Below, piece by piece: positions 40,507 through 54,003 of a stretch of DNA of 64,000 nt. The translations under genes and the position numbers were made by a program. The stretch is from Flavobacteriales bacterium (lineage in GTDB: Bacteria > Bacteroidota > Bacteroidia > Flavobacteriales_D > Sanyastnellaceae), in contig JAIXWP010000144.1 in assembly GCA_027491215.1 (NCBI GenBank), positions 1 through 64,000 of the forward strand. Reading direction: 5' to 3'. The notes below the pieces were generated by a model that saw only the letters and a program-made list of their open reading frames with translations, made no database searches and had not been told where the DNA came from. Numbering within the stretch: position 1 is the stretch's first letter; each line of letters begins with the position of its first letter.

Positions 40507-40595
40507 GGAAAGGTGGGTGAGTGGCTGAAACCAACAGTTTGCTAAACTGTCGTACTGGGTAACTGGTACCGGGGGTTCGAATCCCCCCCTTTCCG
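40507..40595 (+). tRNA. tRNA-Ser (anticodon GCT)
   Basis: Acceptor GGAAAGG / CCTTTCC, anticodon stem ACAGT/ACTGT with loop TTGCTAA, a long variable arm (class II) and TTCGAAT T-loop. No CCA is encoded. Reads AGC/AGU. Confidence 0.95.
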
Positions 40596-40619
40596 CAGAA
40601 ACCGAAGAGTCTGCCGACT

Positions 40620-40651
40620 CAAACGTTTCTCGCGAAAGCGAGGCAGGTTTG
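40620..40651 (+). other. Hairpin in the tRNA-Ser/tRNA-Pro spacer
   Basis: CAAAC ... CTCGC GAAA GCGAG ... GTTTG: a GNRA-capped inner stem with an outer stem. It may be a processing or pause structure in a tRNA precursor. No T-tract follows. Confidence 0.4.
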
Positions 40652-40674
40652 AAAAGGCAACTTTAGGTAAGTTT

Positions 40675-40748
40675 CGGGGTGTAGCGTAGCCCGGTATCGC
40701 GCCTGCTTTGGGAGCAGGAGGTCGTAGGTTCGAATCCTGCCACCCCGA
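40675..40748 (+). tRNA. tRNA-Pro (anticodon TGG)
   Basis: Acceptor CGGGGTG / CACCCCG, anticodon stem CCTGC/GCAGG with loop TTTGGGA, T-arm GGTTCGAATCC. No CCA encoded. Confidence 0.95.
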
Positions 40749-40752
40749 CAAA

Positions 40753-40787
40753 GAAAAGACAACTTCGGGGTTGTCTTTTCTGTTTTA
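40753..40787 (+). terminator. Intrinsic terminator between tRNA-Pro and tRNA-Arg
   Basis: Perfect 11-bp stem GAAAAGACAAC / GTTGTCTTTTC with a TTCGGG loop, then TGTTTTA. It splits the tRNA cluster into two transcripts. Confidence 0.8.
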
Positions 40788-40791
40788 TAAT

Positions 40792-40865
40792 GATCTCGTA
40801 GCTCAGTTGGATAGAGCATCTGCCTTCTAAGCAGACGGTCAGGGGTTCGAATCCCTTCGGGATCA
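40792..40865 (+). tRNA. tRNA-Arg (anticodon TCT)
   Basis: Acceptor GATCTCG / CGGGATC (one G-U), anticodon stem CTGCC/GCAGA-type with loop TTCTAA giving anticodon TCT, T-arm GGGGTTCGAATCCC. No CCA encoded. Reads AGA/AGG. Confidence 0.93.
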
Positions 40866-40868
40866 CTA

Positions 40869-47639: not shown

Positions 47640-50258
47640 ATGGATTTTTCAAAGTTTACAATTAAGTCACAAGAAGTGATTTCGAGAGCTCAGCAAATAG
47701 CTTTAGCTAAAGAGCAACAAATCATTGAGAATGCGCACCTCCTAAAGGCGGTGCTAGAAGTGGATGAAAACGTGACACCATTTTTATTAAAGAAAATGCA
47801 GGTCAATGTTGATTTGTTGGAGCAGGCTTTAGACCGCATGATTGACGGTAGGCCTAAGGTGCAAGGAGGTCAATTACAATTGTCACCAGATGCATCACAA
47901 ACATTATTGAACGCTCAAAATTATTTGCGAGAGTTTCAGGATGAGTTTGTGAGTATCGAGCATATTCTATTGGCCTTGGCAGATGGAAAAGATCAAGCCT
48001 CACAAATGCTTCGCGATAGCGGTGTTTCAAGAAAGGAGTTGAAAGCGGCAGTTTTAGAATTACGTAAAGGAAAGAAAGTAACCTCGTCCACCCAAGAGGA
48101 AACATACAATGCATTGTCAAAGTATGCGAAAAACCTCAACAAGATGGCCCAAGAAGGCAAGCTGGATCCTGTTATAGGAAGAGATGAAGAGATAAGAAGA
48201 GTGACACAAATTCTATCACGAAGATCTAAGAATAATCCTATTATCATTGGAGAACCAGGAGTCGGAAAAACCGCAATTGCAGAGGGCTTGGCTTATCGAA
48301 TTATCAAAGGAGATGTTCCGGAAAATTTGAAGTCAAAAACAATTTATGCGTTAGATATGGCTTCTCTGATTGCTGGGGCAAAATACAAGGGAGAGTTTGA
48401 GGAGCGTTTAAAATCAGTGGTGAATGAAGTGCAGGGAAGTGATGGAGAAATTATTCTGTTCATTGATGAAATTCATACCCTAGTGGGAGCGGGTGGAGGA
48501 GAAGGAGCGATGGACGCTGCCAATATCCTTAAGCCAGCATTGGCCAGAGGTGAATTAAGAGCAATAGGAGCTACAACGCTCAATGAATATCAGAAATATT
48601 TTGAGAAGGATAAAGCACTAGAGCGAAGATTTCAAAAGGTAATGATCGACGAGCCAGATCGTGATGCTGCAATTAGCATTTTACGAGGCTTGAAAGAGCG
48701 TTATGAAAATCACCATAAGGTGCAAATTAAAGATGACGCAATTATCGCTGCAGTAGAATTATCTCAGCGCTATATAACAGATCGTTTTCTTCCAGATAAA
48801 GCGATAGACTTGATTGATGAGGCGGCTGCAAAACTGCGTATTGAAATGAATTCAAAGCCCCAAGAATTGGATGAAATCGAGCGCAAGATCATGCAGCTTG
48901 AAATTGAAAGAGAAGCGATCAAAAGAGAAAATAATACTTCAAAGCTCACGGAATTAAATCGAGAAATTGCAGAGAAACAAGAGGAGAAGAATAGTTTGTC
49001 TGCAAAGTGGCAAGCGGAAAAAGGTGTTGTGGACATGATTCAAAATGCCAAAAAAGAAATTGAAAGTTTAAAGTTTCAGGCTGAGCAAGCAGAGCGTGAA
49101 GGAAACTACGGTTTAGTAGCAGAAATTAGATATGGTAAAGTGAAGGAGCAAGAGCAAATCATTGAAAAGGAACATTTGAAGTTGATAGAGCTTCAGGCTA
49201 ATTCTAAGATGCTCAAAGAGGAAGTGGATCCAGAGGAGATTGCGGATGTGGTAAGTCGTTGGACGGGTATTCCTGTTACGCGATTGGTGGAGAGTGAGAA
49301 AGCGAAGTTGCTGCGTTTAGAATTAGAGCTGGGCAAGAGAGTAGTGGGACAAGAAGAAGCAATAACTGCAATTAGCGACGCTGTTAGAAGAAGCAGAGCG
49401 GGATTGGCAGATGAGCGCAAGCCTATTGGTTCGTTCATTTTCCTCGGTACCACTGGTGTGGGAAAAACAGAACTGGCTAAGGCCTTGAGCGAATTCCTTT
49501 TCAATGACGAAAATGCAATGACTCGAATTGATATGTCTGAATATCAAGAAAGTCATAGTGTGAGTCGATTAGTAGGAGCGCCTCCCGGCTATGTGGGGTA
49601 TGATGAGGGCGGTCAATTGACAGAGGCTGTGAGAAGAAAGCCTTATAGTGTGATTCTCTTAGATGAAATTGAAAAAGCCCATCCTGACGTGTACAATATT
49701 CTATTGCAAGTTTTAGATGATGGACGTTTAACTGACTCGAAAGGTCGAATGGTCAATTTTAAAAACACCATTATTATCATGACAAGCAATTTGGGATCTC
49801 AAATAATTCAAGAGAACTACGATCGCGCAAAGGATCCAGATGATTTCGAATTGTTTGAAAAAACGAAGTCTGAAGTACTTTCATTGCTAAAATCAAGTCT
49901 GCGCCCAGAGTTTTTGAATCGCATTGACGAAACCATAATGTTTACCCCGCTTCGCAAAAGCCAAATAGAAAGTATTGTAAGGATCCAAATGAAAGCGCTT
50001 ACCGAACGTTTAAAGGCTTCGGAGATAAACTTAGTCATTACACCAGACGCGCTGTCGTACTTGGCTCAAAAAGGCTTTGATCCGCAATTTGGAGCTAGAC
50101 CAGTAAAAAGGGTAATTCAGCGAGAAGTCATGAATGAATTATCGAAATATATCCTTTCTGGAAAAATTGATAAAGCTGAGCCTGTTGTTCTGGATGTATT
50201 TGATAATCAGGTGGTTTTCAGAAAAAAGATCGAAGAAGAAGCTCTAATAGAGGTTTAA
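47640..50258 (+). CDS. clpB: ATP-dependent disaggregase ClpB
   Basis: 872 residues. N-terminal Clp_N repeats, first AAA domain (Walker A GEPGVGKT near residue 205), an inserted coiled-coil middle domain (about 410-525, EIERKIMQLEIEREAIKRE), and second AAA domain (Walker A GTTGVGKTE near 605, arm GAPPGYVGYDEGG). The middle domain separates ClpB from ClpA/C. It works with DnaK to rescue aggregated proteins under heat or stress. Downstream there are two ECF-type promoters and terminators, which may belong to stress regulation but do not drive clpB. Confidence 0.98.
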   Translation: MDFSKFTIKSQEVISRAQQIALAKEQQIIENAHLLKAVLEVDENVTPFLLKKMQVNVDLLEQALDRMIDGRPKVQGGQLQLSPDASQTLLNAQNYLREFQDEFVSIEHILLALADGKDQASQMLRDSGVSRKELKAAVLELRKGKKVTSSTQEETYNALSKYAKNLNKMAQEGKLDPVIGRDEEIRRVTQILSRRSKNNPIIIGEPGVGKTAIAEGLAYRIIKGDVPENLKSKTIYALDMASLIAGAKYKGEFEERLKSVVNEVQGSDGEIILFIDEIHTLVGAGGGEGAMDAANILKPALARGELRAIGATTLNEYQKYFEKDKALERRFQKVMIDEPDRDAAISILRGLKERYENHHKVQIKDDAIIAAVELSQRYITDRFLPDKAIDLIDEAAAKLRIEMNSKPQELDEIERKIMQLEIEREAIKRENNTSKLTELNREIAEKQEEKNSLSAKWQAEKGVVDMIQNAKKEIESLKFQAEQAEREGNYGLVAEIRYGKVKEQEQIIEKEHLKLIELQANSKMLKEEVDPEEIADVVSRWTGIPVTRLVESEKAKLLRLELELGKRVVGQEEAITAISDAVRRSRAGLADERKPIGSFIFLGTTGVGKTELAKALSEFLFNDENAMTRIDMSEYQESHSVSRLVGAPPGYVGYDEGGQLTEAVRRKPYSVILLDEIEKAHPDVYNILLQVLDDGRLTDSKGRMVNFKNTIIIMTSNLGSQIIQENYDRAKDPDDFELFEKTKSEVLSLLKSSLRPEFLNRIDETIMFTPLRKSQIESIVRIQMKALTERLKASEINLVITPDALSYLAQKGFDPQFGARPVKRVIQREVMNELSKYILSGKIDKAEPVVLDVFDNQVVFRKKIEEEALIEV

Positions 50259-50279
50259 TTGATTTTTTTTTGAAAAAAG

Positions 50280-50306
50280 TGAAACCTTTTGAAACCTACT
50301 GGCGTA
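50280..50306 (+). promoter_or_regulatory. ECF-sigma-type promoter 1
   Basis: TGAAACC, 16 bases, CGTA, preceded by the T/A tract TTTTTTTTTGAAAAAAG. This spacing and box pair match ECF-type promoters such as the sigma-W consensus (TGAAAC ... CGTA). Confidence 0.6.
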
Positions 50307-50312
50307 CAAAAC

Positions 50313-50390
50313 AATGTAGAATGTTTTTTTTGGTTTATTAAGGTTACAAAATATTGAAAGTCCCGAGTTGCCCCTCGGGACTTTTCTTTT
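50313..50390 (+). ncRNA. Candidate ECF-controlled small RNA 1
   Basis: A stretch of about 77 nt starts just after promoter 1 (start estimated 7 bases beyond CGTA) and ends at a strong terminator. It has no open frame above six codons (ATG followed at once by TAG, then ATGTTTTTTTTG...). No plus-strand gene lies downstream before 55.2 kb, so the promoter has no other visible target. Confidence 0.5.
50358..50390 (+). terminator. Intrinsic terminator of small RNA 1 (also possibly clpB)
   Basis: AAGTCCCGAG / CTCGGGACTT stem, loop of about five bases, followed by TTCTTTT. Confidence 0.85.
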
Positions 50391-50411
50391 TAAATTTTTT
50401 TTTTGAAAAAA

Positions 50412-50438
50412 TGAAACCATCTTTTTGAAGGTCCCGTT
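50412..50438 (+). promoter_or_regulatory. ECF-sigma-type promoter 2
   Basis: TGAAACC, 16 bases, CGTT, preceded by TTTTTTTTTTGAAAAAA. The same architecture as promoter 1, 132 bp upstream, with near-identical flanks. Confidence 0.6.
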
Positions 50439-50444
50439 AAAGAC

Positions 50445-50570
50445 CAAAGAATGATGCTTGTGGTTAGGCATTATTCTTTCAGCGAGCAAAACAAGACTTC
50501 TCAATAGAGTAGTTAAGGTTAATTAAGGTTAAGCAAATGAAAAACCCCGGAAAAGACCGGGGTTTTTCAT
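50445..50570 (+). ncRNA. Candidate ECF-controlled small RNA 2
   Basis: About 125 nt from the expected start to the terminator at 50541-50567. It opens with a hairpin of 12 pairs including one G-U (AAAGAATGATGC / GCATTATTCTTT), as 5' ends of stable RNAs often do. A single-stranded-looking A/G-rich segment follows. An 18-codon frame (MMLVVRHY...) is present but without other support. Confidence 0.5.
50541..50567. terminator. Bidirectional terminator between small RNA 2 and the LPP20-like lipoprotein gene
   Basis: AAAACCCCGG AAAAGA CCGGGGTTTT perfect stem with T-tracts in both directions. Confidence 0.92.
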
Positions 50571-50586
50571 TTTATATAATCGGAAA

Positions 50587-51180
50587 TTATTTGCCTTCGC
50601 TGAATTTAGCCATTTCCTTCTCGAAAGTTTCTTTGAACTTTTCGTAGTTATAGTCAGCTTTGATTTTCTCGTTTTGAGAAAGGGTTTTGTTATAAGCATC
50701 TGCGATACTAGCACCTGAAAGTTCAATTGCGATATAACTTACATAAGTTACTTGATCGCCAACTGTTTTCATGGTCACTTCATCACAGATTTTCTTAGCT
50801 CCACGAAGCTCTTGGTCTACCAAAGTTCTAGACATTTCTTGGAAAGTCTCAGTCACTTCTTCTTTGTTGTTAAATTCAGTAGAATTTACATAGTTATCAC
50901 CTACAATCTTCATTGTAGCGCTGATAGTTTTTGCAAGTTCTGCGTTGGCATTAGAACGAGCTTTCTTTTTTGCTGTTTCACGGTCCAAACTTTCTCCAGT
51001 TGCGTTTGCACGAAAGGCATCCTTAGTGCTCATGTATTCTGGGCCACTGCAATATTCTACGATACGCACTTCGCCAGCTGGCTTAGGAGTTTCAACTGTT
51101 TTTTCTTTCTTTTTACAACCTACTGCACCAAAAGATACAGCGGTAACGAAGAGGGCAATGGTAAAAATTCTAGTATTCAT
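50587..51180 (-). CDS. LPP20-like lipoprotein (third gene of the CsgG operon)
   Basis: 197 residues from the ATG at 51180 (MNTRIFTIALFVTAVSFGAVGCKKK), chosen because it starts a lipoprotein signal; the track start adds MKKTNI. The mature chain has the LPP20-type helix AKKKARSNANAELAKTISATMK and a two-strand region. LPP20 proteins are outer-membrane lipoproteins of unknown function; FlgP belongs to a related group. It lies 58 bp after the larger LPP20-like gene and ends at a bidirectional terminator. Confidence 0.75.
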   Translation of the reverse strand: MNTRIFTIALFVTAVSFGAVGCKKKEKTVETPKPAGEVRIVEYCSGPEYMSTKDAFRANATGESLDRETAKKKARSNANAELAKTISATMKIVGDNYVNSTEFNNKEEVTETFQEMSRTLVDQELRGAKKICDEVTMKTVGDQVTYVSYIAIELSGASIADAYNKTLSQNEKIKADYNYEKFKETFEKEMAKFSEGK

Positions 51181-51238
51181 AATGTTGGTTTTTTTCATTG
51201 TTAAACGTATTTGTCCTTTTTCTACAATCGTGCCAAAG

Positions 51239-52633
51239 CTAGAAAATTGATTCCAATATTGAAGAAATCATTTGCTCTTCGATACGTTGTTTTCCTTTTT
51301 TATATGCCTCAATACTTGCTGCATCTTTATTCAACTGTAGGCCCTTGATGTTGTTTATTGATTCTTGAAATACCTTGTCTCCTGCGCGATTGGTAATAGT
51401 TATAGACATTTCTAAAAATGCCACCACAAAGCCTTGGGAAGTACCTCCTTCAGTGCTATTTGCACTTATTTGTATCACATAATCCGCTCGATCAGCTGCC
51501 CCTAATTTTAATCCTTTTTTAATCAATTCAGCCTGTACTGAAGACGAAAGAGTGGCACTTGTACCTAAGTTTCCGTAAACCTTTTCGCTGGATTGGACTA
51601 CAAATGTAGGCGCGATAAATTCAATTGGGATTTTTTTAGTCTCGGTTTTTAGATTGCGAAGCAAGGCACCAGTGATTTTTTGATCTAGATCCAATGGCTG
51701 TAATGGCATGAGATCAATAGTCACTGTAACTGCTAGCTCCTTATCATTTGTATTTACCTCGCTGATCAGCATACCTACCTGTCCCTGATTGTCTGTAACT
51801 TGAACACGTGGCTTCATGTACTTGTTTTTTGGGTAGTTAAATGCTGTAGTTATTCCTGAAACGGGCTTATCATCATATTTAATGAAATAACTAGAGTTAC
51901 TGGAATAGTCATTTTCAGCTGCGAGGGTGATTTTTGGAGTGGTATTCACAATGGTCAAACCCGAAGAAACTCTTTGAAGACTTGAGTAAATCGAATTGTC
52001 TAAAAATATTTTCCCTTCTTCTGCTTGGTATTCATTGGTGTCATTCCAATAATCCTTTAAAGCAAATAGTCCTCTTAAATAAAGGTCAATGGCTGCACCA
52101 ATGTTAGCATTGTTTTCCGCTTCTTTTCCTTTAGAATAAAAGTCATATGCGCTTGCTTGCGCTTTACTTTTCTTTAGGGCCTTTTGTTGTTGATAGAGCC
52201 CTTTGTTAAGTCGGTAATAAACCCAATATTCATTGTCATTTTCCCAAGTCCCTGCAACTTCGTAGTCTTCGATGAGTTCGTCTGTAGAGGTGTTAATGTT
52301 AGAAATAAACTCTTCACTGAAATTCTTATTTACCTCAAGCGTATTTAGAAAAGTATTTCCCTGAACTCGCACACTAATTTCTGTTGCGAGATCATTCAAT
52401 GCGTTTTTCTTAGCGATGGATTGGTAATCGAGTGGCTGAGCTTTTTTACTTGAACTGCCTACGCCAATATAATATCCACTGCTGAAAGGACGCTGACCAA
52501 CCCACTCAGGACGAACGTTAGTTGCGTTATCGGGAACTGTAGTTTTTACAGTGTCCTTAGATCCACAACCACTCAAGATAGCAAGCGCTATCGTGAAGGC
52601 GGTGAGGAGAAGGCTGAAATATTTTGAGTTCAT
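51239..52633 (-). CDS. LPP20-family lipoprotein, long form
   Basis: 464 residues. Lipoprotein signal (FTIALAILSGC). An LPP20-type segment follows: RPEWVGQRPF...YYIGVGSS, AIAKKNALNDLATEI-like helix and YWVYYRLNKG. The C-terminal half contains a beta-rich domain and a GNA/TolB-like tail (DRADYVIQISANSTEGG, FVVAFLEMSITITN). It overlaps the CsgG-like stop (TAATG) and is surely cotranslated. Probably outer-membrane or periplasmic; function unknown. Confidence 0.78.
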   Translation of the reverse strand: MNSKYFSLLLTAFTIALAILSGCGSKDTVKTTVPDNATNVRPEWVGQRPFSSGYYIGVGSSSKKAQPLDYQSIAKKNALNDLATEISVRVQGNTFLNTLEVNKNFSEEFISNINTSTDELIEDYEVAGTWENDNEYWVYYRLNKGLYQQQKALKKSKAQASAYDFYSKGKEAENNANIGAAIDLYLRGLFALKDYWNDTNEYQAEEGKIFLDNSIYSSLQRVSSGLTIVNTTPKITLAAENDYSSNSSYFIKYDDKPVSGITTAFNYPKNKYMKPRVQVTDNQGQVGMLISEVNTNDKELAVTVTIDLMPLQPLDLDQKITGALLRNLKTETKKIPIEFIAPTFVVQSSEKVYGNLGTSATLSSSVQAELIKKGLKLGAADRADYVIQISANSTEGGTSQGFVVAFLEMSITITNRAGDKVFQESINNIKGLQLNKDAASIEAYKKGKQRIEEQMISSILESIF

Positions 52634-54003
52634 TATTGCACAATCTTTTGTACTGCACCACCAATTTGATTCGAAAGCTGGTTGCTTACTACATTGAATA
52701 ACTCATTTGACATTTCACCGGTTGGTTTCAATTCTTGACGCGCATTCATCAAACTTACCAGCGAACGACGATCTTGTTGGTTGAAGTTAACAGTATTATT
52801 ATTTCCGGCAGGGTAAAGCTCATTGGCATTGCCCTCATACTTTCCAAAAGTTACCTGGTCAATCACTGATTTTTCAATGATTTCAGTTTTGATCAATTCT
52901 CCTGTTTGAAGATTAATCATTTTATATTGGAAGCTAAGTGAAACAGAGTTCGAGTTCGAATACTCAACATAATTTACAGGCTTATAGCGAGTTTCATAAT
53001 AGTATTTTCCATCTTGCTCGTTCAGTTTCTTTACTTTATATGCCTCATATGCCTCGCGAGTTGCAGAGCGCAACTGGCCATTTTTCATATTGTAATTCAA
53101 TACTGTTCCAGTTAAAATTGCTTGCGCTCCCACGAGTTGACCCACACTAACTGCGGTAGCTTCATCAACAACTCCGCTCAATTGAAGTTTTTGCTCTTGA
53201 AGAATCGCTTGAATGTGTTCACGATCTACGATTCGCAAGAAAGGATCGTTGATGGAAATCAAAGCCTCAAGTGTATATGCAGATACTTTTGCATCCAGAC
53301 CAGTTGAGCTGGTAGCGTTTTCAAAAGGTAATAAAGCAATAGTGTAGGTCCCCTTTTCAATGCACTCTTTGCTTTTTACTTTAGCGTCTTTGTAGTCAAC
53401 TTTGCGAGCCATCACTTTGTTAAAGCCATCATAAGCTTCGCGATAATGCTTTATGTCCATTGCTCTAACAGCGGCGCTATATAATGGCTCCATGAAGGCA
53501 ATATCTGCTAGATCTTTCGAGTCTTTGTAGTTAGGTTCGAGTGTTCTAATCTCGCTGAACTTTGTTTCAGCTTCCGCAAATTTTTCTTGTTCTAGAAGCG
53601 ATGTGCCGGCTTCATAAAGTTCGGTTAAGTATGCAGCTTTTACATTTTCATAATCTTGTACATAAAATTCAGCGATGTCGAGTGTAATGCCAACTCCTTG
53701 AATTTTGCTTTTGTAGTCACGCACTTTGTGGAAGGCGTAAACTGCTTTTTGGTTAGAACCAAAACTCTTTTCACGAGCGAACTCACCTAGCATTTGGTTG
53801 AGTAGTAATTGCCCGTTTTTCTTCATTCCAATTTGCGCGTCGATATTGGTTCTTTTTTTCAAAAGAGCATTGTAGTAGCTATTTGCAGCTTCGGTTGTTA
53901 AGCCGGCAGTCTCTTGTTTGACGGCCATTTTAGTGAAGTACTTGCTACCATGACAGGCCATCAAAAAGATACTGATTAAAGCGAAAACGTAAATATTTTT
54001 CAT
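52633..54003 (-). CDS. CsgG-family lipoprotein with TPR-like N-terminal region
   Basis: 456 residues. Lipobox LMAC at the N-terminus. Residues about 30-210 are alpha-helical repeats resembling TPR (AGTSLLEQEKFAEAETKFSEI, AMDIKHYREAYDGFNKVMA). The C-terminal part has the CsgG core: TIALLPFENATSSTGLD, LRIVDREHIQAILQEQKLQLSG, QLVGAQAILTGTVLNYN. CsgG family members form outer-membrane export pores or related rings. Here it heads a three-gene operon with two LPP20-type lipoproteins; no curli subunit is near. A strong terminator isolates it from DUF4476. Confidence 0.83.
   Translation of the reverse strand: MKNIYVFALISIFLMACHGSKYFTKMAVKQETAGLTTEAANSYYNALLKKRTNIDAQIGMKKNGQLLLNQMLGEFAREKSFGSNQKAVYAFHKVRDYKSKIQGVGITLDIAEFYVQDYENVKAAYLTELYEAGTSLLEQEKFAEAETKFSEIRTLEPNYKDSKDLADIAFMEPLYSAAVRAMDIKHYREAYDGFNKVMARKVDYKDAKVKSKECIEKGTYTIALLPFENATSSTGLDAKVSAYTLEALISINDPFLRIVDREHIQAILQEQKLQLSGVVDEATAVSVGQLVGAQAILTGTVLNYNMKNGQLRSATREAYEAYKVKKLNEQDGKYYYETRYKPVNYVEYSNSNSVSLSFQYKMINLQTGELIKTEIIEKSVIDQVTFGKYEGNANELYPAGNNNTVNFNQQDRRSLVSLMNARQELKPTGEMSNELFNVVSNQLSNQIGGAVQKIVQ

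Follow-up and report, generated by a model that had tools for sequence, protein, structure and literature searches.

A conserved tandem pair of putative small RNA genes with ECF-type promoters downstream of clpB in a Flavobacteriales bacterium

What do two closely spaced promoters of the same type serve when no gene lies in front of them? The question arises in a 64,000-nt stretch of a Flavobacteriales genome (the window), where a sequence-only reading had described, downstream of clpB, twin ECF-sigma promoters, each followed by a terminated non-coding stretch, and had proposed a likely pair of duplicated small RNAs (sRNAs) that would parallel enterobacterial RNAs repressing outer-membrane proteins. 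We confirmed the coordinates of both promoters (Table 1), their identical 16-nt spacing and their offset of 132 bp; a T-tract followed by GAAAAAA precedes both, with one extra G in P1. The exact pattern TGAAACC-N16-CGTW occurs twice in the window, at P1 and P2, compared with a mean chance expectation of 0.05 in 100 shuffles, none of which contained two. The window open reading frames include no credible plus-strand gene downstream of the units until about 55.2 kb. Given the two promoter elements, the terminator behind each and the gap of nearly 5 kb before the next plus-strand gene, the initial observation of twin promoters with terminated units is correct. Compared with shuffled sequences, unit 2 folds far better (z −7.3) and unit 1 moderately so (z −2.3).

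Table 1. The two units and their neighbours in the window
Feature	Position	Strand	Evidence
clpB, upstream neighbour of the units	47640..50258	+	Open reading frame
Promoter P1: T-tract, GAAAAAA, −35-like TGAAACC (50280-50286), 16-nt spacer, −10-like CGTA (50303-50306)	50262..50306	+	Sequence; same element upstream of other family A copies
Unit 1 small RNA (family A), inferred transcript	50313..50390	+	Family A model match, 62.7 bits; 5' end inferred from −10 position
Unit 1 proposed pairing region GUAGAAUGUUUUUUUUGGUUUAUUAAGGUUA, with one UUAAGGUUA at 50338-50346	50317..50346	+	Alignment with other copies; complement of AACCAAA leaders
Intrinsic terminator T1, 12-bp stem and T-tract	50356..50385	+	
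Promoter P2: T-tract, GAAAAAA, TGAAACC (50412-50418), 16-nt spacer, CGTT (50435-50438)	50394..50438	+	Sequence; conservation
Unit 2 small RNA (family B), inferred transcript	50443..50575	+	Fold z −7.3; family B model match, 92.1 bits
Unit 2 5' hairpin	50446..50479	+	Stem sequence varies, GGUUAG kept, in three species of the genus
Unit 2 invariant box AGAGUAGUUAAGGUUAAUUAAGGUUAAGCAA with two 10-nt repeats UUAAGGUUAA	50506..50536	+	13 genomes share 28 of its bases exactly; alignment
Intrinsic terminator T2, 16-bp stem in the fold	about 50534..50573	+	Fold; compensatory changes in relatives at 8 stem pairs
Convergent gene, 203-aa lipoprotein-like protein, no Pfam match	50587..51198	−	

T1 may also form the end of the clpB mRNA, and T2 is likely common to unit 2 and the convergent gene. 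The convergent minus-strand cluster (50587–54003) is envelope-related and encodes the 203-aa lipoprotein-like protein, an LPP20 lipoprotein and a CsgG/LpoB-domain protein. Three tRNA genes (Ser, Pro, Arg) lie 9.5 kb upstream of the pair, at 40507–40866; three tRNA genes also adjoin family A copies in the relative G171 (stretch L291, 1022–1423).

Searched at the DNA level against 60 relatives, units 1 and 2, representing families A and B, proved to be conserved separately. Copies occur in sister species and in further genera of the family, sometimes at other genomic sites; the tandem order A then B is frequent and persists in several genera. A lies upstream of B in this genome (G000) and in G001, G018, G010, G184, G171 and G235, and also, at greater distance, in G020. 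When sought downstream of clpB, one or both units were found there in the sister species G001 and G002 and in G018, which belongs to another genus; in other genera they lie elsewhere. The sequence-only reading had named poor conservation of boxes and spacing in sister genomes as grounds for refuting it, and the comparison did not refute it. The family A and B RNA models were built without the promoter, and [TC]G[AT]AAC[ACT]-N16-CGT stands upstream of 30 of the 35 distinct A/B cores, with the N15 form in 3 more (33/35), across several genera; the N16 form occurs in 0.145% of random 170-nt windows of this genome, although the copies are not independent trials because they are related by descent. 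In every promoter-bearing copy of family A, the core starts 6–8 nt after the 5-nt −10 box.

These data bear on whether the locus holds trans-acting sRNAs at all, or instead the clpB 3' end together with functionless short terminated transcripts or tiny peptides. T1 can terminate clpB, and plus-strand frames of 1–18 codons are present within the units (18 codons in unit 2, 6 in unit 1). However, these frames are conserved in neither length nor sequence between sister species, in keeping with the non-coding character first assigned to the stretches, and genera whose units lie elsewhere than behind clpB still retain the promoter, the box and the terminator. We consider such a reading highly improbable, and the locus very probably comprises two conserved sRNA genes with working ECF-type promoters.

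The two families differ in anatomy. Family B consists of a variable 5' part, a short CUUCUC...GAGUAG element, an invariant box with two 10-nt repeats UUAAGGUUAA, and the terminator. Its 5' part forms a hairpin in three species of the genus, in which the stem sequence differs and GGUUAG is kept. The 28-nt box, AGUAGUUAAGGUUAAUUAAGGUUAAGCA, is identical in 13 genomes and precedes a terminator stem with compensatory changes in 8 pairs. The family A core, AUGUAGAAUGUUUCAUUUUGGUU, is found in G009, G010 and G028. This genome and G001 carry an altered version of it, unit 1 here having lost the seed's CAU, and genus g9 has a related form, GUGUGAUUUGUUUUUUUGGUUAAUUAAUGGAUUUGGUUAAG. Units 1 and 2 have in common their promoter and the UUAAGGUUA words (50338, 50513, 50523), and GGUUAAUUAAG..GCAA is common to A and B in sequences read by eye, which suggests that the two families are related to each other. 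Rather than "duplicated", the sRNAs are better called members of two related families; they are distinct and not copies of one RNA.

Among 299 genomes of the order, the unit 2 box AGTAGTTAAGGTTAATTAAGGTTAAGCA was found without mismatch in 13, and no genome carried it with one to three mismatches. The inner 21-mer of the box matched 19 stretches in a collection of 85,462 species, and in those from Flavobacteriales the promoter, the box and the terminator are all present and arranged alike. The unit is absent from six matches outside the family (Psychrobacillus, Cyclobacteriaceae, Lentimicrobium, Chitinophagaceae, Saprospiraceae and Acidobacteria). The sequence TTAAGGTTAATTAAGGTTAAG occurs once each in Lentimicrobium, Chitinophagaceae and Saprospiraceae, in non-coding-looking DNA without a promoter or terminator of the unit type. 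Outside the window's family, the family B model scored at most 42.4 bits, versus 92.1 for unit 2, and the box was absent; we therefore claim no wider distribution of family B, and describe both families from the one family of Flavobacteriales in which they were found. Two tandem terminated units in G013 (G013:C1:781529 and 781987), with AGTAGTTAAG...TTTGGTTAAG, resemble diverged family B members, and no promoter of this type was recognized upstream of them.

Which other genes might share the promoter? We derived a matrix from 19 A/B sites, P1 and P2 among them. Genome-wide searches of G000 covered half of the genome, and in 1.65 Mb the matrix returned only four strong sites, two of which are units 2 and 1. 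The third lies 25 nt before a response-regulator gene and the fourth before a gene for a 48-aa protein; a pattern search added a 96-aa gene beside dsbD and an MbnP lipoprotein gene. In G002 the promoter is again present before the 48–50-aa gene, and in G001 and G028 it precedes a gene resembling that for the 96-aa protein. Across eight genomes, the bare promoter pattern was no commoner than its reversed control, so the proposed regulon rests on position and cross-species recurrence rather than on counts. It appears to be small and, given its DsbD and lipoprotein members, probably envelope-related. Two of the proteins are worth recording in their own right. The conserved 48–50-aa protein (MLEYYK...GNVTFDA...FRKELRKAMRQL; G000:C114:5814 and G002:C25:390740) has no Pfam match, and its gene carries its own terminator and the same ECF-type promoter. 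The ~96-aa protein (RTRVVAT..D..VL..G.SLPI) follows the same promoter in three species (G000:C133:25158, G001:C329:3042 and G028:C179:338), with DsbD downstream in G000 and G001.

The promoter of the units agrees with the CGT-box SM6 motif (PMC9723704), and from its sequence we infer that the units depend on an ECF sigma factor. The ECF-driven part of the original proposal is supported at the level of promoter sequence. None of the 15 ECF sigma genes found was linked to this promoter; among the ECF genes examined, none was preceded by the same promoter, as autoregulation might have produced. The sequence-only reading also knew of no such pair in this lineage, a statement that needs one qualifier. 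Rfp11 of Flavobacterium psychrophilum is a putative conserved sRNA whose SM6 promoter, with a CGT −10 box, has been ascribed to an ECF sigma factor (PMC9723704), so the order already has a precedent for a putative ECF-driven sRNA. Rfp11 resembles the units, by promoter description, as a Flavobacteriales sRNA with a CGT-box ECF-type promoter; unlike them, it is a single RNA for which no pair is described (PMC9723704).

No Rfam family matched unit 1 or 2 at threshold, and the weak matches obtained were driven by the terminators. A rimP match just over threshold in G002 was discounted, as it reflects a gammaproteobacterial leader model matching the terminator. The units nevertheless resemble FopS/GibS of Bacteroides thetaiotaomicron (RF04319; PMC11697453, PMC7366714) in being paralogous short sRNAs of Bacteroidota with an intrinsic terminator, a 5' seed complementary to start regions (in the units a proposed one) and an RRM-1 protein in the genome, whose gene is present here too. 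FopS sRNAs act by blocking a susC start codon, and RbpB binds them (PMC11697453). In an alignment, UUAAGGUUAA, located in the single-stranded 5' part before the terminator, proved common to the FopS consensus and family B, although it is short enough for convergence. In contrast to FopS/GibS, which carry a sigma-ABfr promoter, the units have the ECF-type TGAAACC-N16-CGT promoter, and they form a tandem A–B pair with an invariant doubled repeat; targets have been shown for FopS only.

Could the units then be distant FopS/GibS members with a changed promoter? They share the layout (5' seed, UUAAGGUUA(A), terminator, several paralogues), and the FopS model assigns 27.4 bits to unit 1 and 18.6 bits to unit 2. 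Both scores fall below the Rfam gathering score of 56 bits, which no match in 40 relatives exceeded, and a whole-genome search with the model does not list the window units. Moreover, scores as high or higher (up to 35.6 bits) occur at other sites in relatives, and because these include apparent antisense start regions with terminators, the FopS score is no evidence of homology. Considering also the different promoter type, we rejected FopS membership, to which we assign very little probability. The FopS model matches inspected in Flavobacteriales resemble start codons read in antisense, each next to a bidirectional terminator, and the model should be applied with caution outside Bacteroides.

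The original comparison was with enterobacterial RNAs. Among the sigma-E-dependent sRNAs, driven by an envelope-stress ECF factor, MicA, RybB and VrrA lower outer-membrane protein synthesis; FoxJ is reported to have an unusual activating activity (PMC2628432, PMC6737893, PMC11005410). The likeness of the units to these four lies in regulatory logic, not in sequence; they belong to other phyla, and no sequence relation was found (no Rfam match).

The search for family A across the family also turned up one antisense match, in G010. It falls on ACTAACCAAAATGAACCATTCTAC, the start region of a gene lying in an open frame of 5,093 aa, which starts with a signal-peptide-like segment and a DUF7948 domain. 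The complementarity is near-perfect: the duplex between the G010 family A RNA and this region spans the start codon and has a calculated energy of −42.8 kcal/mol. On a 70-nt window the value is −37.0 kcal/mol, compared with a best of −31.4 among 1,240 unrelated start regions of another genome and −28.6 among 1,000 shuffled RNAs. This target is a single case, and DUF7948 genes of other genomes, considered as conserved targets, gave no comparable duplex. In 817 upstream regions of this genome, AACCAA, ACCAAA and AAACCA rank 3, 7 and 11 of 4,096 hexamers, and many of the other top leader hexamers look like TAnnTTTG, the known promoter box. The family A word UUUGGUU is complementary to these AACCAAA-type words. 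Genes with an AACCAAA leader encode signal peptides in 18 of 27 cases versus 39% overall (p 0.0045, uncorrected and with a crude predictor).

Two target searches were set aside. Genome-wide duplex energies of units 1 and 2 against 1,242 start regions of this genome were no better than those of shuffled RNAs, so the energy-based targets were rejected as indistinguishable from them. For family B, the pattern GCTTAACC-N-ATGA has three matches in G000, all before envelope genes (a surface protein with a nidogen-like domain, PorP/SprF and a DUF4296 lipoprotein), but across 114 genomes it did not exceed its reversed control, and despite these matches it was discarded as a target rule.

Taken together, the G010 duplex, the ranks of the AACCAAA leader words and the signal-peptide enrichment lead us to favour base-pairing at the start regions of surface-protein mRNAs. 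Family A probably acts at such regions; for family B the chances seem slightly short of even. The proposed repression of surface proteins accordingly finds support for family A, in one relative and in leader-motif statistics, and is more tentative for unit 2. Family B also raises the possibility that protein is the main object of the RNAs, whose repeated single-stranded GGUUAA would titrate an RNA-binding protein, such as the genome's single RRM-1 protein, in the manner of CsrB-type sponges. Each RNA carries two or three GGUUA[A/G] copies, the invariance of the box would be unusual for a pairing seed, G000, G002 and G010 each encode one RRM-1 protein, and the RbpB-bound FopS sRNAs carry the same UUAAGGUUAA (PMC11697453). 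Set against this are the complementarity of the family A seed to a start codon, with its near-perfect target, and the behaviour of Bacteroides RbpB, which is not a sponge target and counteracts pairing (PMC11697453). Action mainly by titration seems unlikely to us.

The best reading, and in our view a reasonably probable one, is an ECF-driven, start-codon-blocking sRNA pair, arranged in tandem and made up of the related families A and then B. Each sRNA gene would be transcribed from its own ECF-type promoter and ended by its own intrinsic terminator, so that A and B RNAs would accumulate when the sigma factor is active. The RNAs would base-pair with the translation initiation regions of surface-protein mRNAs and block initiation, family A via UUUGGUU-type seeds and AACCAAA leaders, family B probably via its GGUUAA/GGUUAG repeats. 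The 96-aa gene beside dsbD, the MbnP lipoprotein, the response regulator and the 48–50-aa protein would be members of a common ECF regulon. A more far-reaching version, in which an ECF sigma factor controls a paralogous A–B pair that silences surface proteins through a generic AACCAAA-AUG leader of the lineage and the RRM-1 protein is bound or titrated by B through its duplicated GGUUAA box, would make the system an independently arisen, Hfq-free and Shine-Dalgarno-free counterpart of sigma-E with MicA and RybB; as a whole we hold it to be speculative and rather unlikely.

In Proteobacteria, the shutdown of outer-membrane protein synthesis by sRNAs of the sigma-E type is textbook knowledge. 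To our knowledge, Bacteroidota lack Hfq and Shine-Dalgarno sites, very few of their species have yielded trans-acting sRNAs, and there is hardly any record among them of a repressing sRNA under ECF control. The units described here are conserved and previously uncatalogued, being undescribed in Rfam and in the literature searched. With them, an sRNA family is defined by sequence in several species, together with a sharp promoter, a small candidate co-regulon and one near-perfect target, which makes the idea of start-codon blocking directly testable. The AACCAAA leader may, in turn, represent a different common handle for sRNAs in a lineage without Shine-Dalgarno sites.
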